Positions 28,042-36,765 of a DNA stretch of 64,000 nucleotides are shown piece after piece (the first letter of the stretch is position 1; each line of letters starts with the position of its first letter). The position numbers and the translations under genes were made by a program. The notes beneath the pieces were generated by a model that saw only the letters and a list, made by a program, of their open reading frames with translations, was not told the origin of the DNA and made no database searches. The stretch comes from Pseudonocardia sp. HH130629-09. GTDB taxonomy: Bacteria; Actinomycetota; Actinomycetes; Mycobacteriales; Pseudonocardiaceae. The DNA lies in contig NZ_CP011868.1 in NCBI RefSeq assembly GCF_001294645.1, positions 992,001-1,056,000 of the forward strand, written 5' to 3'.

Positions 28042-28392
28042 GTGCCTCAGCACCGCGCACGGTCCGCGTCCCGGGTCCGGCTGATCGCCGGTGGCGCCGC
28101 GCTCGCCGGCACCGCCCTGATCGGCCTCTCCGGCGCGGCCCAGGCGGCCACCCCGGACCTGGTCCCCGACCTCGGTCCGATCCTCAGCGCCCCCGACGAC
28201 GACCAGCCCGACCCGGCGCCGACGGCACCCCCGGTCGAGTCGTCCTACGAGGCGTTCGACTCCGACCAGCCGATCCAGCAGCTGCGCGACTTCGCCCCCG
28301 CGGGCGTCCCCGTCGCCGGGCTGGTCGACGTCGTGTCGAAGGCGCCGAAGCAGATCACCCCGACGTTCCTGAGCGGCGGGGCCGGCGAATGA
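28042..28392 (+). CDS. Small exported protein, first gene of sulfur operon
   Basis: A 116-residue protein. A basic N-terminus and the hydrophobic LIAGGAALAGTALIGLSGAAQA with an AxA-like site form a Sec signal peptide. The mature part is acidic and Pro-rich, then ends in LRDFAPAGVPVAGLVDVV, weakly similar in pattern to the end of the His-rich protein at 33585. No family was recognised. The GTG start follows AAGAAGGAG by about 7 bp. The stop overlaps the next start as ATGA, so it is coupled to the propeller protein and may be a partner or secretion helper for it. Confidence 0.75.
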   Translation: MPQHRARSASRVRLIAGGAALAGTALIGLSGAAQAATPDLVPDLGPILSAPDDDQPDPAPTAPPVESSYEAFDSDQPIQQLRDFAPAGVPVAGLVDVVSKAPKQITPTFLSGGAGE

Positions 28393-30221
28393 GCCTGCTC
28401 CCGCAGTCCCGCTGGGCGCGGCGGGGGCTGATCGCCCTCGCGAGCGCCGCTGTCGTCGCCGGGGTCGTCGCGATCCCCGCATCGGCCCAGGGCACGATCG
28501 ACAAGGTCAAGTCCGAGGTCACCGGCGCCGACGGCAAGAACTACTGGGTCGAGAACAACCTCACGCCCGAGGCCCGTCAGCAGTCCGCCGACGGGCCCAA
28601 GAAGGAGTACGCCCTCGTCTGGGCCGGCGACGAGAACATCGCCGACACCGCCGTGGCGGACGTGCGCAACCTGCCCGGGTCGCTGCTCGACCCGGTCGAC
28701 AAGGTCCGCGACGCCCTGCCGGGCCCGGACTTCCTGGCCGTCGTCGACGTCACCAAGGGCACCCCGGACTACGGCAAGGTCGTCAACACCGCGACCGTCG
28801 GCCCGCTCGTGGAGAACGAGCCGCACCACATGCAGTACTCGTGGCGCAAGGGCGACAAGATCTACGCGGGCGGCCTGTTCACCGCGGCGACCTACGTCTT
28901 CGACGTCGCCGCGCTGCCGGAGATCAAGCTCTCGGGCATCTCGCTGCCGTCGCAGACGCTGTGCGGGTCGGTCCCGGACGCCTACTGGGTCCTCAAGGAC
29001 GGCACCGCGTACGGCACCTACATGGGCGGCCCCGTCGCCCCGGGTCCGTGCCGCTACACCAACGGCGAGGTCCGCACCGGTAACGGCTTCGCGGGCGCCC
29101 CGGGCTCGGTCATCCGGTTCGACCAGGAGGGCCGCAACCTCGTCGAGGCCCCGGCCGCGACGGAGACGCCCGAGGACCCGACCCAGTGCCTCAACATGCC
29201 GGCCCTGGGCAACCCCACCTGCGCGAACCCGCACGGGATCCAGGTCCGCGAGGACCTGAACACCATGATCACCAGTGACTACGCCGAGCCGCGGACGATC
29301 ATCCTCGACCCGGTGAAGAACCCGTCGCCGTACCTGCGGCGGCCCACGGTGCGCACCTGGGACATCTCCGACCTGAACAAGCCGAAGGTCAAGTCGGTGC
29401 AGTACCTGCCGACCGGCCCGCGGAGCAACGGTGTCGACCCGCTGCGCAACGAGAACCGCGCCGTCATGGAGACCACGGTCACCAACCGGCCGGAGCACAA
29501 GGGCGCCTTCGCCCAGACGATGCAGGGCGGCGCGATCTTCTACACGCCCGACATCACCGCCGACAACCCGGAGTGGAAGGAGGTCTTCGACCTGGGGACC
29601 GCCGCGCCGCACCTGGGCGTCGGGGGCGAGAACGGTGGCCCGAGCGCGAACGGTGGCTGGATCCAGACCAGCGCCGACGACAAGACGCTCTACCACGCCA
29701 TGATCGGCCGCAAGGCCGGCACGCTGGGCCCGGACGACAAGGGCACCGCGGGCGGCGTCATCGCGCTCGACATCGAGAAGCTGCTGGCCTCGGGACCGAA
29801 CCCGAGCTGCTCGATCGACACGATCGAGGAGACCACCGCCGGTGGCGCCGAGGCCGACTGCCCGACCATCAAGGGCACCGTCGGCATCAACTCCGACCAG
29901 ACCGGCGCCGGCCCGCACTGGGGCGCGCTGGACAACCTGGAGCTCGGTGACGACGGCTACTACCACCACACCGACCAGCCCAAGCGCCTCGCGACCGCGA
30001 ACTACTTCGTGGCCCGCACCGGGCTGGACGGCGACCACCGCCTCTGCATGACCGACATCGCCCCGGACGGCTCGCTGTCCCTGGACGAGTCGTTCAAGGA
30101 CGAGGACACCGGTGAGACCTGCGTCAACTTCAACCGCGAGAACTGGCCGCACGGTGCGTTCGGCAATGCCAAGCCGCACTCGATGCTGTTCGTCGCCGCG
30201 GACGAGGACATCAAGGACTGA
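28389..30221 (+). CDS. Exported SBP56-like beta-propeller, probable methanethiol oxidase
   Basis: A 610-residue protein with a signal peptide (RRGLIALASAAVVAGVVAIPASAQG). The body reads as a selenium-binding-protein-56 propeller: DFLAVVDVTKGTPDYGKVVN, ENEPHHMQYSW, NPHGIQVREDLNTMITSDY, WDISDLNKPKV, GPHWGALDN and KPHSMLF. The HH, PHG and PHW histidines are candidate copper ligands. Bacterial SBP56 proteins (MtoX) oxidise methanethiol to formaldehyde, sulfide and peroxide in the periplasm. At 610 residues it is longer than typical MtoX (about 430). ATG at 28389 overlaps the preceding stop. The YeeE/YedE transporter downstream supports a sulfur role; activity is inferred. Confidence 0.7.
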   Translation: MSLLPQSRWARRGLIALASAAVVAGVVAIPASAQGTIDKVKSEVTGADGKNYWVENNLTPEARQQSADGPKKEYALVWAGDENIADTAVADVRNLPGSLLDPVDKVRDALPGPDFLAVVDVTKGTPDYGKVVNTATVGPLVENEPHHMQYSWRKGDKIYAGGLFTAATYVFDVAALPEIKLSGISLPSQTLCGSVPDAYWVLKDGTAYGTYMGGPVAPGPCRYTNGEVRTGNGFAGAPGSVIRFDQEGRNLVEAPAATETPEDPTQCLNMPALGNPTCANPHGIQVREDLNTMITSDYAEPRTIILDPVKNPSPYLRRPTVRTWDISDLNKPKVKSVQYLPTGPRSNGVDPLRNENRAVMETTVTNRPEHKGAFAQTMQGGAIFYTPDITADNPEWKEVFDLGTAAPHLGVGGENGGPSANGGWIQTSADDKTLYHAMIGRKAGTLGPDDKGTAGGVIALDIEKLLASGPNPSCSIDTIEETTAGGAEADCPTIKGTVGINSDQTGAGPHWGALDNLELGDDGYYHHTDQPKRLATANYFVARTGLDGDHRLCMTDIAPDGSLSLDESFKDEDTGETCVNFNRENWPHGAFGNAKPHSMLFVAADEDIKD

Positions 30222-32227
30222 TGACGTCCGTGTCGTTCTCGACGTCGTTCTCGACACTCGTGCCGGCCGGCGGGCTCCTGCCCGCCGGCCCGGCCGGGGA
30301 CGCCCCCGCCCTGCTCCGTGCAGTGGCGGGGGCCGCCCCGGCGGTCCTCGCCGCAGGACCCTCCGACGGTGTGCCGTTCGTGGACACGGCCCTGCGCCTG
30401 GTCCTGCTCACCGCGCTCGCCGTGGTGGCCGGGTCCGGCCTGGTGCGTGTCCTCGCCGACGCCCCCGGACGCGCCGAGCGGGTCGTCGCGGGAGTCGCGG
30501 CGCTCGTCGCCGTCTCCGCCGCGGTTGCCGCGGTGACCCGGTCCGGCGCCGGGATCTCCGGCTGGACCCTGCTGCTCCTGCTGGCGACGGTGGCGGTGCC
30601 CGCGCTGCTCGCCGGCCCGCGGCCGGTGCTCGCCGTCGCCCCCGCGCTGGTGGTGACCGGGCTGCTGGCGATCCAGCTGGCCGGGACCCCGTCGGCGCCG
30701 TGGTTCGCCCTCGACGCCGGGTACGCCGTCGTGGGGGCCCTGGCCGCCGGTGCCGCGCTGCACCTGGCCACCGCGACCGACCCGGCGCCGCGGGTCGCCC
30801 GGGTGCGGATCGTCGGCATCGCGGCGGGGACGGTCGCAGTGGTGCTCGCCGCGGTCCGGGTCGCCCTCACCGGACCGTTCTCGCTCACCGACCTGCACGG
30901 CACCGGCTACGGCCGGGCGGTGCTGGTCACCGTGCTGGCCCCGGCCGCGGTCGCGGCCCTGCTCGCCGTGCAGGCGTGGGTGACCCGCCGTGCAACGGCC
31001 GGGACCCGCTCCGACGGGGTGCGGGCCGCCGAGCTGCGCGACCGTCTCCGCACCCCGGTCGTGCTGGCCGCCCTCGCGGCGGTCGGTGCGGCGACGCTGC
31101 CGGCCGCACTGCCCTCCCCGGCCCCGGGGGCCACCCCCGGCCAGGCGCTGCTGCGCTCGGTCGACCTCGGTGCGGGCCCGCTGACCCTGGCGGTGTCCCC
31201 GATGCGCCCCGGACCCAACCTGGTGCAGCTCACCGGCGGCGGGGTCGAGGTGACCGGCCCGGACGCACGGATGCCCGCCGGGCACGGTGGTGACCCGGGC
31301 GCCCCCGCCGGGTACGCGGTGCGGGTGGGGGACCGGGCCGTCCCGTTCACCGCCCGTACGGAGGTCCGTGGCGGCTGGGCCCTCGTCGACCTGCCCGCGG
31401 GAACCTCGTCGATCACCCTCACCGCGGGTGGCCTGACCCGCTCGGTGCCGGTCGACGTCGGCACCGAGCGCACCGCCCCGGCGGGCGCGACCGGGCCCGA
31501 CGCCCCGGAGTGCCTGTCGGCCACGGTCGGGCGGATCGTCGCCGGTGGCGACGCCACCGTCGGGAACTGCCCGTCCGAGGCGCTCGACCCCGCCGACGCC
31601 GGTGCCCTGCGTGGCATCGTGCGTGCGCTCGGGGGCCAGGGGGCGCCGGGCCTCGCGATCGCCGGCGACGCGTCGCCGCGCTCGCGGGCCGCCGCCGACG
31701 TCGTGCGGGCCGAGGCCGCGGCCGCCGGGCTGCCCGTCCGCCCGGCCGCGGGTCCCCAGGACGCGCTGCTGGTCGTCTCGGGCTGGCAGCTCGCCGCCAC
31801 CACGGTGCGCGACACCGCCCGCGCGGCGCTCACCACGCCCACCGCGCTCGGCGGGACCTACCTTGCACCCTGGCTGCTGACCGGCGGCGTGCTCGGCCAG
31901 AGCCCGGGCACCCTGCTCCCGCTGGACTTCGGTCCGCAGGAGCCGGCCCCGCAGCGCTACGTGCGGCTGCTGGCCGCCGTCGCCCCGGGCTCGGCGCCGT
32001 CGCTGTCCGGGCTGCGCGCCTGGGCCGCCACGTCCGGCGAGACCTACGCCGACCCGGTGCCGTCGCTGTACGCCGCCGCACCGGTCGACGTGCCCATGAC
32101 CGCCGACACCGACGGCGGCCACCACGGGTCGCCCAACGAGGCGGCGTGGTTCCCGGGCGGCGCGGTCGTCCGGATCGGCTCCGCACTCGACACCGGTCCC
32201 GGCACCCCCGCCGGCCCGACCCCCTGA
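30221..32227 (+). CDS. Large membrane protein with extracytoplasmic C-terminal domain
   Basis: A 668-residue protein. About eight hydrophobic helices lie in the first 310 residues (for example LVLLTALAVVAGSGLVRVL and AVLVTVLAPAAVAALLAVQ), an arrangement reminiscent of CopD copper-import proteins. A beta-rich stretch with MRPGPNLVQLTGGGVEV, recalling CopC-like strands, follows, then an Ala-rich soluble domain with GLAIAGDASPRSRAAADVV. The last part carries HHGSPNEAAWFPGG. I cannot name a family with confidence. ATG at 30221 overlaps the propeller stop as TGATG, so the pair is translationally coupled. It could supply copper or handle product for the propeller enzyme; both are guesses. Confidence 0.6.
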   Translation: MTSVSFSTSFSTLVPAGGLLPAGPAGDAPALLRAVAGAAPAVLAAGPSDGVPFVDTALRLVLLTALAVVAGSGLVRVLADAPGRAERVVAGVAALVAVSAAVAAVTRSGAGISGWTLLLLLATVAVPALLAGPRPVLAVAPALVVTGLLAIQLAGTPSAPWFALDAGYAVVGALAAGAALHLATATDPAPRVARVRIVGIAAGTVAVVLAAVRVALTGPFSLTDLHGTGYGRAVLVTVLAPAAVAALLAVQAWVTRRATAGTRSDGVRAAELRDRLRTPVVLAALAAVGAATLPAALPSPAPGATPGQALLRSVDLGAGPLTLAVSPMRPGPNLVQLTGGGVEVTGPDARMPAGHGGDPGAPAGYAVRVGDRAVPFTARTEVRGGWALVDLPAGTSSITLTAGGLTRSVPVDVGTERTAPAGATGPDAPECLSATVGRIVAGGDATVGNCPSEALDPADAGALRGIVRALGGQGAPGLAIAGDASPRSRAAADVVRAEAAAAGLPVRPAAGPQDALLVVSGWQLAATTVRDTARAALTTPTALGGTYLAPWLLTGGVLGQSPGTLLPLDFGPQEPAPQRYVRLLAAVAPGSAPSLSGLRAWAATSGETYADPVPSLYAAAPVDVPMTADTDGGHHGSPNEAAWFPGGAVVRIGSALDTGPGTPAGPTP

Positions 32228-32250
32228 CCGCCACCCACGAGGAGAGTCCC

Positions 32251-33546
32251 GTGTCGATCACGAAGGATCCGTCCGGCCGGTCGCCGGGCTCCCTGGTCCG
32301 CGCCCTGCGCGAGCTGCCCGCCTCCGGGCGCACCGCCTACGGCCCGCAGGACCGCGAGGCCGCCCCGCCGCAGTGGCCGGTGGTCGCGGTCGGCCTGGTC
32401 CTGGCGGTGCTGTTCCTCGTCGGGGTGGGCGCCGTCGCCCCGGCGACGATGGTCGGCACCGCCGCGCTCGGCCTGGCCCTGGGCTTCACGCTGTTCCACT
32501 CCCGGTTCGGCTTCACCTCCGGCTGGCGTCAGCTCGTCGCCGTCGGGCAGGGCGCCGCGATCCGCGCGCACATGCTCATGCTGGCGACGGCGTCGGTGCT
32601 GTTCGCGGTGATCCTCTCGTCCGGGTTCGCGCTCGCCGGGGACCCGCGGGGCTTCACCAACCCGATCGGCATCGGGCTCGTCGTCGGCGCCTTCCTGTTC
32701 GGTGTCGGCATGCAGGTCGGCGGGTCGTGCGCGTCGGGGACGCTGTTCGCCGTCGGCAGCGGGCAGTCCGCGATCGTGCTGACGCTGTTCGGGTTCATCG
32801 TCGGGTCGATGTTCGCGGTGTTCACCCACACCTTCTGGACGCAGACCGTCCCGCAGGGTCCGAGCATCAACCTGGCCCAGCTGCTCGGCTACCCGGGTGC
32901 GGTCGCGGTGACGCTGCTGGTCACGGCAGGGATCACCGTGGTGACCTGGGTCGTCGCCCGGCGCCGCACCCCGCCCCCGGTCGAGCGGCCGCCGTCGGCC
33001 CGCGGTGCGGCACGCGTGCTGCGCGGCTCGTGGCCGATGTGGGTCGGCGCGCTCGTGCTCGCAGTGCTCAACGCGGCCGTCCTGTTCGTCTCCGCCGCCC
33101 CGTGGGGTGTGACCTCGGCGTTCGCGCTGTGGGGCTCGAAGGTCCTGCAGGTGGTCGGGTTCGACATGGCGGGGCTGGCCTACTGGCAGGTCCCGGCGAA
33201 CGCCCGGTCGCTGGCCGCGCCGGTGCTCGCCGACCGCATCTCCAACCTCGACGTCGGCATCATGATCGGCGCGCTGGTGGCCTCCGCGGTGGGCGGCGCG
33301 TTCGTGCTGCACAAGCGCATCCCCTGGAAGCTCGGCCTCGGCGCCGTCCTCGGCGGCATCGCGATGGGCTACGGCGCGCGCCTCGCGGGCGGCTGCAACA
33401 TCGGTGCCTACTTCTCCGGCATCGCCTCGTTCAGCCTGCACGGCTGGATCTGGGCCGTCGTCGCACTCGGCGGCACCTGGGTCGGGCTGCGGCTTCGGCC
33501 GCTGTTCGGCCTGACCAACCCCAAGCCGGTCGACTCGCTCTGCTGA
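32251..33546 (+). CDS. YeeE/YedE family sulfur-compound transporter
   Basis: A 431-residue integral membrane protein. Two DUF395-type repeats carry the hallmark cysteines: VGGSCASGTLFAVGSGQ near residue 160 and LAGGCNIGAYFSGIA near residue 375, as in the thiosulfate importer TsuA/YeeE, where conserved cysteines relay the substrate. GTG at 32251 lies 7 bp after GAGGAGAG. The last residue is a cysteine (DSLC). It follows the membrane protein by 23 bp. It probably imports thiosulfate or a related sulfur species released outside the cell. Confidence 0.88.
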   Translation: MSITKDPSGRSPGSLVRALRELPASGRTAYGPQDREAAPPQWPVVAVGLVLAVLFLVGVGAVAPATMVGTAALGLALGFTLFHSRFGFTSGWRQLVAVGQGAAIRAHMLMLATASVLFAVILSSGFALAGDPRGFTNPIGIGLVVGAFLFGVGMQVGGSCASGTLFAVGSGQSAIVLTLFGFIVGSMFAVFTHTFWTQTVPQGPSINLAQLLGYPGAVAVTLLVTAGITVVTWVVARRRTPPPVERPPSARGAARVLRGSWPMWVGALVLAVLNAAVLFVSAAPWGVTSAFALWGSKVLQVVGFDMAGLAYWQVPANARSLAAPVLADRISNLDVGIMIGALVASAVGGAFVLHKRIPWKLGLGAVLGGIAMGYGARLAGGCNIGAYFSGIASFSLHGWIWAVVALGGTWVGLRLRPLFGLTNPKPVDSLC

Positions 33547-33584
33547 GCACGCCGGACGCTCCCCCCACCAGAGAGGTTCACACC

Positions 33585-33914
33585 ATGACCGCACGCACCA
33601 CCGCCCGCGCACTGGCCGCCGTCGCCGGCGCCGGAGCGCTGGCCACCCTGGCCGGCGGGCTCGCGCACGCCGACGAGGGCCACCAGCGCCACGGCCACGG
33701 AGACGCCCACTACGACGGCACCGTCTGGCACTACGACGGCGAGGCGACCCCGAGCGACTCGGCCGAGCTGAACCCGTCCGCCGGTGACCGGCCGGGTGGG
33801 AACACCCCCGTGTACCTGCTCAAGGACGTCCCGGCGGCACCGCTGCCGAAGGACCTGCTGACCCCGGTCGACCTGACCGCGCCCGTGTTCGGGGCGCTCG
33901 ACGGCCTGAGCTGA
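33585..33914 (+). CDS. Small exported His-rich protein
   Basis: A 109-residue protein. TARALAAVAGAGALATLAGGLAHA is a signal peptide with an AHA cleavage site. The mature N-terminus is DEGHQRHGHGDAHYDGTVWH, six His with acidic residues, a probable Cu or Zn site. The tail VYLLKDVPAAPLPKDLL is neutral. GAGAGG precedes the ATG by about 9 bp. It is the last gene of the operon and is followed by a strong hairpin. No family was recognised; a periplasm-like copper carrier for the propeller oxidase is an attractive but untested role. Confidence 0.72.
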   Translation: MTARTTARALAAVAGAGALATLAGGLAHADEGHQRHGHGDAHYDGTVWHYDGEATPSDSAELNPSAGDRPGGNTPVYLLKDVPAAPLPKDLLTPVDLTAPVFGALDGLS

Positions 33915-33985: not shown

Positions 33986-34021
33986 GATCGCCCCGTCCGG
34001 GATCTCCCGGGCGGGGCGATC
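33986..34021. terminator. Bidirectional hairpin between sulfur operon and yceI-like gene
   Basis: A 16-bp stem (33986-34001 with 34006-34021, one T-G wobble) closes an ATCT loop. It lies 71 bp after the His-rich gene and touches the stop codon of the convergent gene at 34020. Confidence 0.75.
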
Positions 34022-34832
34022 ACGCGTGCGGAGCGTCCTGCAGGACGGCCTGCACGTCGAGGTCGATCCGCAGCGTCCGCCCGACGGCGAGCACGCCGGC
34101 CAGCACCGACTGGTTCCAGTCGATCGCGAACTCGTCGCGGGAGATCTCGGTGGTGGCGGTGAACGCCGCCCGGGTGCCGCCCCACAGGTCGGGGCCGGTG
34201 CCGCCGTAGGTCATGTGCAGGTCGACCGGTGCCTTGACGCCCTTGAGCGAGAGCATCCCGTGCACCGTCCAGCGGGTGGCGTCGACCCGGGTCAGGCCGT
34301 CGCCCTCGTAGCCGATGGCCGGGTGGGTCTCGACGTCGAGGAAGTCCGCGGTCCGCAGGTGGGAGTCGCGGTCGGGGTCGTCGGAGTCCACCGATCCCGC
34401 GTCGATCGACACACTGACCGAGCTGGCCTCGAACGGGTCGGCCACCCGCAGATCGCCGGAGAACCGGCGCAGCCTGCCGTGGATGCGGCTCATGCCCAGG
34501 TGCAGCGCGGTGGCCCGGATGCTGGAGTGCTGCGGGTCGATCCGCCACAGCCCCGGGGTGGGCAGCACCGCGCCGCCGGCCCTGGCGAGCTCGACGCGGC
34601 CCAGGTCGACGCCGTCCCCGGCGAGGGAGACCGCCCGCGCGGAGGGCTCGTACCCCGCCGCGGCGACGACGACCGTGTGCGGGCCCGGCGCCAGCTCCGC
34701 CACCGCGAACCCGCCGTCGGCCCGGCTGGCCGCCCGGCCCCGCTGCACGCCGGTGGCGTCCATGACGGTGACCGTCGCGCCGGTCACCGGCCAGCCGTCG
34801 GGGGTGCTCAGCCGTCCGTGGAGCTCAGCCAT
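34020..34832 (-). CDS. YceI-family protein with N-terminal carboxypeptidase-regulatory-like domain
   Basis: A 270-residue two-domain protein. Residues 1-85 form a CnaB/carboxypeptidase-regulatory-like beta sandwich (LHGRLSTPDGWPVTGATVTV, GPHTVVVAAAGYEPSA). Residues 93-265 are a YceI lipocalin-like barrel: WRIDPQHSSIRATALHLGMS, SIDAGSVDSDDPDRDSHLR, GMLSLKGVKAPVDLHMTY and SRDEFAIDWN. YceI barrels bind polyprenoid lipids. No signal peptide is present, unlike E. coli YceI. The start overlaps the upstream repeat-protein gene by 8 bp, so the two form one operon. Confidence 0.85.
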   Translation of the reverse strand: MAELHGRLSTPDGWPVTGATVTVMDATGVQRGRAASRADGGFAVAELAPGPHTVVVAAAGYEPSARAVSLAGDGVDLGRVELARAGGAVLPTPGLWRIDPQHSSIRATALHLGMSRIHGRLRRFSGDLRVADPFEASSVSVSIDAGSVDSDDPDRDSHLRTADFLDVETHPAIGYEGDGLTRVDATRWTVHGMLSLKGVKAPVDLHMTYGGTGPDLWGGTRAAFTATTEISRDEFAIDWNQSVLAGVLAVGRTLRIDLDVQAVLQDAPHA

Positions 34833-35649
34833 GTCCGTGCTCCGTCCGCGTCGGGGCGCCGATCCGGTCGTCGTCGGTCGGGTCCGGGGCGCCGAAGCGC
34901 ACCTCGACCGGTGTGGTCGCCCCCCGCGCCACCTGCACCGCGACGACGACCGGCGCCCAGCCGCTCGCGGTCAGCTCGTGCCGTCCCGGCGGGAGCCCGT
35001 GCAGCTCGTAGCTGCCGTCCCGGCCGGTGGTGGTCTCGGCGACGGTGCGGCCGTCGCTGTCGCCGATCACGATCCGAGCCCCGGGCACCGGGCGGCCGTC
35101 GCCGCTGCGGGCGACACCGGCGATCCCGGCCAGGGCGGGGAACCGCAGCTCCACCGGCGGCGCGGCCGGGTCGGCGTCGACGGTGCGGGCCAGCGGCCCG
35201 TGCCCGGGTGCGGTCGCGGTGAGGGTGTGCGGGCCGGTGCCGGGGGTCTCGACCAGGAACCGGCCGGCCGGGTCGGTCGGCGTGTGTGCGACGACCTCAC
35301 CCGCGGTGTCGATCAGTGTGACGGCGGCGGCACCGACCGGGTGGCCCGTCGCGTCGGTCAGGGTGCCCCGCACCGTGCCCCCGCCGGCGACTGTCACGTC
35401 GTGCCGGGCGGGGGACGCGCCGACGGCGACCAGCCCGGCGTCGGGCCCGGCGCCGTCGGTGCGGGTCACCACCAGGTACGTCCCGCCGGTGCCCAGGGGC
35501 ACGGCGTAGGTGCCGTCGTCGCCGCTGGCGGTCCGCCCGTGCTGGCGGCCGTCGAGGTCGGTGACGGTGACGGTCGCGTCCGGCACGGGGGTGCCGGACC
35601 GCCCCCGCACGGTGCCGACGACCGCAGGTCCGTCCCGTTCCGGTGTCAC
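34825..35649 (-). CDS. Tandem carboxypeptidase-regulatory-like (CnaB-type) repeat protein
   Basis: A 274-residue protein built from three consecutive beta-sandwich repeats of about 80 residues, each starting like VVGTVRGRSGTPVPDATVTV or GIAGVARSGDGRPVPGARIV and ending in a DGSYELHGLPPGRHELTASG-like segment. There is no signal peptide or membrane anchor, which is odd for a fold usually found outside the cell. The gene overlaps the yceI-like gene whose N-terminal domain is a fourth such repeat. A 15-bp palindrome sits just upstream of the start. Function unknown; a scaffold or ligand-binding role with YceI is inferred. Confidence 0.78.
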   Translation of the reverse strand: MTPERDGPAVVGTVRGRSGTPVPDATVTVTDLDGRQHGRTASGDDGTYAVPLGTGGTYLVVTRTDGAGPDAGLVAVGASPARHDVTVAGGGTVRGTLTDATGHPVGAAAVTLIDTAGEVVAHTPTDPAGRFLVETPGTGPHTLTATAPGHGPLARTVDADPAAPPVELRFPALAGIAGVARSGDGRPVPGARIVIGDSDGRTVAETTTGRDGSYELHGLPPGRHELTASGWAPVVVAVQVARGATTPVEVRFGAPDPTDDDRIGAPTRTEHGHG

Positions 35650-35835: not shown

Positions 35836-36765
35836 ATGACCGCCACCGTTCCGGAGCACGGGCTCGAGGTCGGGAACGACCGGCACGCAGAGGATCGGCA
35901 CGACACCGCTGAGCGCCTCCTGCGGTCCTCCGAGGAGCTCTCGTTCGACCCGGCCACCCAGGTCGACTGGGACACGCCGCTGGACCGCGACTACCACGGC
36001 ATGAGCCCGGAGTGGAGCAGCCTCTACGGCACCCCCTACTGGGCGGAGCTGACCGAGGAGCAGCGCAAGGAGCTGACCCGCCAGGAGTCGGCGTCGGTCG
36101 CCTCGACCGGCATCTGGTTCGAGATGATCCTGCAGCAGCTGATCCTGCGGGACTTCTACGCGAAGGACCCGACCGACCCGGCGTTCCAGTGGGCACTGAC
36201 CGAGATCGCCGACGAGTGCCGCCACTCGATCATGTTCGCCCGCGGTTCGGCCAAGCTCGGCGCCCCGGCCTACATCCCGAAGAAGCGCGTCGTCGCGATG
36301 GGCCGGCTCTGCGCGGCCGTCTACTCCGGTGAGGCCGCCTACGCCTCCATCCTCGTCGCGGAGGAGGTCCTCGACGTGATGCAGCGGGACTGGATGCGCG
36401 ACGAGCGCGTCGTCCCGTTCGTCCGGACGATCAACAACATCCACGTGGTCGAGGAGTCGCGGCACATGAAGTTCGCCCGCGAGGAGACGCGTGACCGTCT
36501 CCGCGGGGCGGGCCCGCTGCGCCGCCAGGTCCAGGCCCTGTTCGTGGCCCTGGCCGCCTACGAGATCGTCACTGCCATGTGGAACGAGGATCTGTACGAG
36601 AACGCGGGCCTCGACCGGAAGCGCGCGCTGCGCGAGGCGCGGAACAACGAGCACCACAAGGCGCTGCTGCGGTCCTCCTGCGCCGGGCTCATGGAGTTCC
36701 TGTCCTCCTGCGGCCTGCTCACCAAGCCTGCGCTGGCCCTCTACCGTCGCGCCAACCTGATCTGA
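35836..36765 (+). CDS. AurF-type diiron oxygenase
   Basis: A 309-residue ferritin-like oxygenase of the p-aminobenzoate N-oxygenase (AurF) family. Iron ligands are visible in RQESASVASTGIWFEMIL, EIADECRHSIMFARG, AEEVLDVMQRDW, VEESRHMKFAREE and NNEHHKALL: the helical E/ExxH pattern expected for two irons. AurF-like enzymes oxidise amines or hydroxylate aliphatic substrates. It lies 13 bp upstream of a ferredoxin-fused reductase, an arrangement also known next to fprB in Mycobacterium. A large palindrome sits in its promoter. The substrate is unknown. Confidence 0.88.
   Translation: MTATVPEHGLEVGNDRHAEDRHDTAERLLRSSEELSFDPATQVDWDTPLDRDYHGMSPEWSSLYGTPYWAELTEEQRKELTRQESASVASTGIWFEMILQQLILRDFYAKDPTDPAFQWALTEIADECRHSIMFARGSAKLGAPAYIPKKRVVAMGRLCAAVYSGEAAYASILVAEEVLDVMQRDWMRDERVVPFVRTINNIHVVEESRHMKFAREETRDRLRGAGPLRRQVQALFVALAAYEIVTAMWNEDLYENAGLDRKRALREARNNEHHKALLRSSCAGLMEFLSSCGLLTKPALALYRRANLI

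Follow-up and report, generated by a model that had tools for sequence, protein, structure and literature searches.

What do five neighbouring genes of Pseudonocardia sp. HH130629-09 accomplish, when one of them seems to encode a distant cousin of methanethiol oxidase and another a transporter of the YeeE/YedE family? The genes lie on the + strand at positions 28042-33914 of a stretch of 64,000 nucleotides (hereafter the window) of contig NZ_CP011868.1, in a host genome of 6.3 Mb and 2 contigs. A sequence-only reading of the locus had proposed a copper-using oxidation of a C1-sulfur compound outside the membrane, followed by uptake of the sulfur product. Fold, homology, conservation, co-occurrence and the copper genes beside some relatives of the locus were computed. 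The results support a gene cluster that is conserved and operon-like in soil actinobacteria, and its propeller protein is probably copper-binding; the part concerning sulfur is held more tentatively.

Composition and conservation of the gene cluster

All five genes are present and nearly contiguous, in agreement with the sequence-only reading, which had described overlaps or short gaps. Gene g1 (28042-28392) and gene g2 (28389-30221) overlap by 4 bp, g2 and g3 (30221-32227) overlap by 1 bp, and gaps of 23 bp and 38 bp separate g3 from g4 (32251-33546) and g4 from g5 (33585-33914). A gene caller based on the GC content of codon positions retains the five genes. The gene g1 begins with a GTG directly preceded by AGAAGGAGA, and encodes a small exported protein of 116 residues (S1 family, assigned from the open reading frame and the S1 relatives). 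The other products are an exported seven-bladed SBP56-like propeller of 610 residues (g2, from its fold and profile homology), a membrane protein of 668 residues (g3, from its domain layout and adjacency to g2), a YeeE/YedE transporter of 431 residues (g4, from its PF04143 match and the alignment with TsuA) and a second small exported protein of 109 residues (g5, S2 family, from the S2 profile match).

The cluster was compared with 80 related loci, the best 80 of 129 (81 with the window). The alignment A1 contains 49 of 81 propellers and the alignment A2 contains 43 of 77 g3 proteins, both including the window; some rows of A2 begin at the furthest upstream codon and their first residues are perhaps spurious. 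The alignment A3 covers 14 of 30 loci, and Pfam was applied to 26 of the 92 neighbour proteins listed and to 4 others. Counting the window, 72 loci have sufficient flanking sequence; the membrane gene is found near the propeller in 71 of them, S1 in 65, S2 in 65 and YeeE in 46. All five families occur together in 39/72 loci, and the four families other than YeeE in 64/72, so that the co-occurrence expected by the sequence-only reading was observed. In 200 genomes of the taxonomic family, the propeller is found in 70 and g3 in 79; 66 genomes have both, and in each of these 66 the two genes are adjacent (within 2 kb). The Fisher p values are 2e-34 for the propeller with the membrane gene and 1e-17 for the propeller with YeeE, and are nominal because the genomes are related. 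The grouping of the cluster genes is far beyond chance. Full YeeE matches are present in 63 of the 70 propeller genomes and in 37 of the 130 others; in 48 of these 63 genomes YeeE is separated from the propeller by 1.9-3.0 kb (within 6 kb), and in 15 it is far away or on another contig.

Four genomes contain the propeller alone, of which two (G110 and G112) show only short fragments. Thirteen genomes contain g3 alone, and in all six neighbourhoods inspected the g3-type protein (35-40% identity) has different surroundings. In genome G006 the g3 gene, next to YeeE, lies right at a contig end, so that its propeller may have been cut off. Few genomes outside the family carry the propeller: 4 of the 395 sampled from the rest of the phylum, one of these being a weak match inside a canonical SBP56; the named matches outside the family include Nocardioides and Fodinicola.

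The propeller and its proposed metal site

The protein g2 displays the SBP56 fold together with a detectable profile homology. The scores are below the thresholds: 16.7 bits with PF05694 (SBP56) for a curated cut-off of 34, and 26.5 bits with the NCBIfam profile of MtoX, the methanethiol oxidase of Hyphomicrobium, for an equivalog cut-off of 650. The NCBIfam family that the sampled propeller members match is MtoX, in 49/49 cases. The identity with three actinobacterial SBP56 is 21-24%, and no canonical SBP56 was detected in the host genome at an E-value of 0.001. Solved structures searched with the g2 sequence alone gave nothing relevant, and with the g2 profile only 2ece was recovered, at an E-value of 0.32. 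The protein g2 thus appears as a real but remote SBP56 homolog, a distant cousin of methanethiol oxidase. The propeller described by the sequence-only reading stands in its homology, its fold and its length, greater than the 435 residues reported for MtoX (PMC5739008), although its scores are far below the SBP56 and MtoX cut-offs. Like MtoX, g2 is predicted to be exported; because the twin-arginine (Tat) motif RR is found in 8/77 propellers, Sec export is likelier than Tat export.

The metal site was examined in an alignment of 9 members, namely the window protein, 5 relatives that are fairly close and 3 that are distant, together with 3 actinobacterial SBP56. Equivalences with human SELENBP1 and Hyphomicrobium MtoX, proteins absent from this alignment, follow the order of the motifs. 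The ligands described for SELENBP1 are His73/His74, His137/His140 (HxxH), Asp189 and Glu252 (PMC10362175), and the site residues described for MtoX include His89/His90 (HH) and the C-terminal His412 (PMC5739008). In g2, His146-His147 (28824-28829, + strand, as for all the following residues) correspond to the HH motif of SBP56 and are conserved in 49/49 sampled members and in 12/12 sequences of the metal-site alignment. His597 (30177-30179; 49/49 and 12/12) corresponds to the invariant C-terminal His of SBP56 and is taken as the equivalent of MtoX His412 because it is the sole invariant C-terminal His of the SBP56 alignment. Glu361 (29469-29471; 49/49 and 11/12) would be the equivalent of SELENBP1 Glu252, and Glu144 is also invariant in the 12 sequences. 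Two other residues are specific to the family: His282 (29232-29234), beside the presumed position of SELENBP1 Asp189, is conserved in 49/49 sampled members, in 8/9 with the distant relatives and in 0/3 SBP56, and His510 (29916-29918) in 49/49, 9/9 and 0/3, respectively. His550 and His588 complete the residues invariant in the 49 close members. In the predicted secondary structure, His146, His147, His282 and His597 are included in strands and His510 immediately precedes one. We read this site as related to that of SBP56 but rebuilt, part of it kept and part replaced. The likeness with MtoX and SELENBP1 comprises the seven-bladed propeller, the HH pair, the Glu, the C-terminal His and the copper genes near some relatives of g2. 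The propeller is probably a copper-binding protein.

Partners of the propeller and their possible links to copper and sulfur

The membrane protein g3 is composed of a membrane helix bundle with eight long helices (residues ~48-301) and of extracytoplasmic domains, namely a beta domain (~306-410) and a lobe of periplasmic-binding type 1 (~418-662) that displays the fold of periplasmic binding proteins of this type. The CopD profile (PF05425) has no match in g3 nor in any of the 43 sampled members (window included). DUF6239 is matched by 6 of these 43 members, at best with an E-value of 3.5e-4, which is uninformative, and NCBIfam returned nothing useful for g3. The neighbours of two distant propellers have CopD scores of 29.1 and 31.3 bits (cut-off 32.1), with CopC and Peripla_BP_6 above their cut-offs. 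The protein g3 may be called CopD-like because of its fold and because of these distant neighbours, where CopC is overt, CopD close to its cut-off and Peripla_BP_6 present. The earlier designation as a CopD-like membrane protein is therefore retained for the fold and the distant neighbours, not for the CopD profile, and it had overlooked the C-terminal domain of periplasmic-binding type. The likeness with CopC/CopD lies in the membrane bundle with extracytoplasmic domains and in the counterpart neighbour of two distant genomes, which contains CopC, CopD and Peripla_BP_6; unlike CopD, g3 gives no CopD profile match and has a domain of periplasmic-binding type 1 fused to it. To our knowledge, such a fusion is not found among described CopD proteins. 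The copper genes beside propeller relatives are CopC-CopD-Peripla_BP fusions, CopC and CopD, and PpoB2. With ligands partly kept and three kinds of copper neighbours, in 5 loci only, the copper link appears as the stronger half of the proposal.

The transporter g4 matches PF04143 over its full length (222 bits, cut-off 27) and is the sole match of this family in the host genome. Its Cys160 and Cys382 align with Cys91 and Cys293 of TsuA, described as indispensable (PMC11582611), which bears out the earlier assignment as a YeeE/YedE protein with both key cysteines. Cys160, Cys382 and the C-terminal Cys431 are invariant in 44/44 family members. The likeness with TsuA/YeeE and SoxT thus consists of the full-length PF04143 match and of the invariant equivalents of TsuA Cys91/Cys293. 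The position of TsuA Cys22 is occupied by Gly87 in g4 and by Gly in 44/44 members, in a register read from the alignment with the solved TsuA chain, a C22A mutant (PMC11073785). In contrast to TsuA, g4 has this Gly and an invariant C-terminal Cys, resides in a genome without YeeD/TusA, and is longer (431 residues versus 330-350; PMC11582611). The NCBIfam profiles of TsuA give 69 and 48.1 bits, below their cut-offs of 400 and 645, and the best NCBIfam match is YedE/FdhT (NF033796, 147 bits, cut-off 350). The last residue of g4 (window 33541-33543), a Cys in 44/44 members, may take the place of TsuA Cys22 or of a TusA-type partner. The presumed link to sulfur rests on YeeE, near the propeller in 46/72 loci.

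The small proteins g1 and g5 have no Pfam match. The members of S1 and S2 are mostly of ~60-120 residues with N-termini resembling signal peptides, and relatives were found in 70/81 loci for S1 and in 68/81 for S2; these counts are partly circular, the profiles having been built from the same loci, with the g5 of the window left out of the S2 profile. This S2 profile built without g5 matches g5 at 2e-11. In Pseudonocardia the S1 gene lies upstream of the propeller gene, and in the other listed genera it lies downstream of g3/g4, so that its association is kept although the order changes. The description of g5 as an exported His-rich peptide holds for g5 itself but not for the S2 family, where 58 members have 14 His in 2600 mature residues (mature part delimited by a crude rule). 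The His-rich insert was looked for in three close relatives of g5: the nearest (locus L164) shares it, and L041 and L165 have none. The His-rich character appears to be a local, lineage-specific trait of g5 within S2.

Possible functions and contexts of the relatives

The reading that we favour, tentatively and as the most probable of several, is an extracytoplasmic copper oxidoreductase that oxidises a sulfur compound whose sulfur product is imported by YeeE. From the above results we infer copper occupancy, catalysis, substrate, transport direction and the functions of g3, S1 and S2, as follows. The exported propeller would bind copper where its central channel opens, by some of the residues His146/His147, His597, Glu361, His282 and His510, and would oxidise a reduced sulfur compound (thiol or thioether) outside the membrane. 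The protein g3, with its CopD-like and periplasmic-binding domains, would supply or sense copper or a ligand for the propeller. Through Cys382 and Cys160, g4 would import the sulfur set free, as sulfane sulfur or thiosulfate, with Cys431 perhaps replacing the missing TsuA Cys22 and the TusA-type partner, and S1 and S2 would be small accessory secreted proteins. Sulfur oxidation followed by sulfur import is the likeliest combination because the products of methanethiol oxidases (MTOs) include sulfane sulfur (PMC10936201) and YeeE-like proteins import sulfur (PMC11582611). The nature of the sulfur product of the MTO/SELENBP1 family is disputed between H2S and sulfane sulfur (PMC10362175, PMC10936201).

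Several results weigh against this reading. In the propeller the HxxH motif is lost, the column of its first His being Asp in 8/9 members, Ala in 1 and His in 3/3 SBP56, and the presumed position of Asp189 is Gly283 in 9/9 members and Asp in 3/3 SBP56. Compared with MtoX and SELENBP1, g2 has Asp in place of HxxH, Gly with an adjacent new His in place of Asp, and the additional His510; of the SBP56 copper site assumed by the sequence-only reading, the HH pair, the Glu and the C-terminal His are recovered, but the HxxH and the Asp are replaced. The motifs GWNACS, HTVHC and GGDCS, which carry conserved substrate cysteines needed by Rhodobacteraceae MTOs (PMC10936201), are absent from the propeller alignment. 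In a second aligner, 2ece and 1l0q, a surface-layer propeller, rank equal. Neither SCO1/SenC nor MauG was found among the 10 window proteins scanned (the 80 related loci were not scanned for them), and the partners differ, CopD/periplasmic-binding-type protein and YeeE for g2, SCO1/MauG for MtoX. The copper neighbours are drawn from 5 loci, in a search that covered part of the 80. The TusA/YeeD (TsuB) family has no match in the host genome, the control profile being positive in 11/14. YeeE is not obligatory, since 26 of the 72 loci have none near the propeller. Finally, the chemistry may not concern sulfur, because relatives occur in contexts as unlike as a glycosyltransferase cluster, MlaD genes and molybdopterin genes.

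These last observations bear on an alternative that we judge unlikely, in which the extracytoplasmic copper oxidoreductase has a non-sulfur substrate (cell-envelope component, secreted metabolite or lipid) and YeeE, as an optional neighbour, provides sulfur for other purposes. The loci without g4, the relatives beside EryCIII-like glycosyltransferase/deoxysugar genes and beside MlaD genes, and the lack of the MTO cysteines agree with it, whereas the nearly fixed distance of YeeE in 48/63 genomes having both, and the position of g4 as sole PF04143 member of its genome, do not. Somewhat less probable is a copper-handling module without catalysis, where the propeller would be an extracytoplasmic copper binder or buffer and g3 a CopD-type copper transporter or sensor. 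The association of relatives with CopC, CopD, DUF1775 and PpoB2 and the Met/His-rich end of g3 are consistent with such a module; however, PpoB2 is reported to serve an oxidase (PMC2855505), the SBP56 propellers described with a related site are oxidases (PMC10362175, PMC5739008), and such a module offers no obvious place for a sulfur transporter. A strict methanethiol oxidase equivalent to MtoX, with uptake of its sulfur, is improbable: the NCBIfam family of the 49 members and the common HH, Glu and C-terminal His point to it, but the MtoX score is remote from its cut-off, HxxH, Asp and substrate cysteines are lost, and the window proteins scanned include no SCO1/MauG. For the same reasons, the C1-sulfur or methanethiol substrate of the sequence-only reading stays conjectural; its copper link and YeeE are supported. 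Uptake or binding of selenium is very improbable, since the selenium-binding name of SBP56 and the YedE/FdhT match of g4 are outweighed by the distance of this match from its cut-off, by SelD-family matches that are all below cut-off in the host genome, where selenium metabolism was consequently rejected, and by the report that the oxidase activity of SELENBP1 is largely independent of selenium binding (PMC10362175).

An extended version of the favoured copper-and-sulfur reading can be imagined, which we also regard as unlikely. The propellers would represent a new family of extracytoplasmic copper enzymes that is the sister of SBP56 and whose His site was rebuilt; they would break C-S bonds or oxidise thiols outside the cell; sulfane sulfur would pass to a TusA-independent YeeE via its own C-terminal Cys, copper would come through a CopD-type protein with a binding-protein domain, and relatives would have been recruited to natural-product and lipid-transport neighbourhoods. 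Extracytoplasmic methanethiol oxidation of MtoX type and sulfur import of YeeE type are already known, separately. MtoX and YeeE-type transporters are mentioned in one Hyphomicrobium, in passages that do not present them as one operon (PMC12423496), and no cluster of the present composition was found among passages of one open-access library. The novelty lies in a propeller of the SBP56 superfamily whose metal site and partners both differ, and the cluster hints at an undescribed route of sulfur scavenging. If true, sulfur scavenging would be extended to a large group of soil actinomycetes (propeller in 70/200 sampled family genomes), unplaced SBP56 relatives would receive a testable role, and a natural variation in the copper site of the family would be available.

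Concerning the relatives, in locus L157 (7295-9037, genome G114) a paralog of the propeller, with 54% identity to its best family match, lies among genes for an EryCIII-like glycosyltransferase, an NDP-hexose dehydratase and an aminotransferase, surroundings that look like a glycosylated natural-product cluster. In L148 (4757-15108, G320) three genes with MlaD domains (Mce-type) lie next to a distant propeller and the CopC-CopD-Peripla_BP gene beside it, and in L156 (7853-12949, G039) the propeller is beside Fer2_2 and molybdopterin-binding (MoCoBD) genes, in a genome without g3 match. These three contexts suggest a wider family of extracytoplasmic enzymes. In L147 (11595-12857, G299) a gene for a ComA-type phosphosulfolactate synthase is located a few kb from a distant propeller, and the genome also has a canonical SBP56. 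Six genomes (L150-L155) have g3-type proteins without propeller match in the genome; near the g3-type protein are an HxlR regulator (L151) and a GMC oxidoreductase with a carboxymuconolactone decarboxylase-like gene (L155).

Within the window, the promoter scan at the cluster found none, and two terminator-like sites, both on the - strand, were detected (expected 0.8). An AurF-type N-oxygenase gene (35836-36765, 329 bits) is located downstream of the cluster, and no link to it was seen. Two genes on the - strand occupy 34020-35649; one encodes a YceI domain with a carboxypeptidase-regulatory domain, the other three such regulatory domains alone, and the YceI-type gene clusters with genes of two other loci only, L031 and L041.
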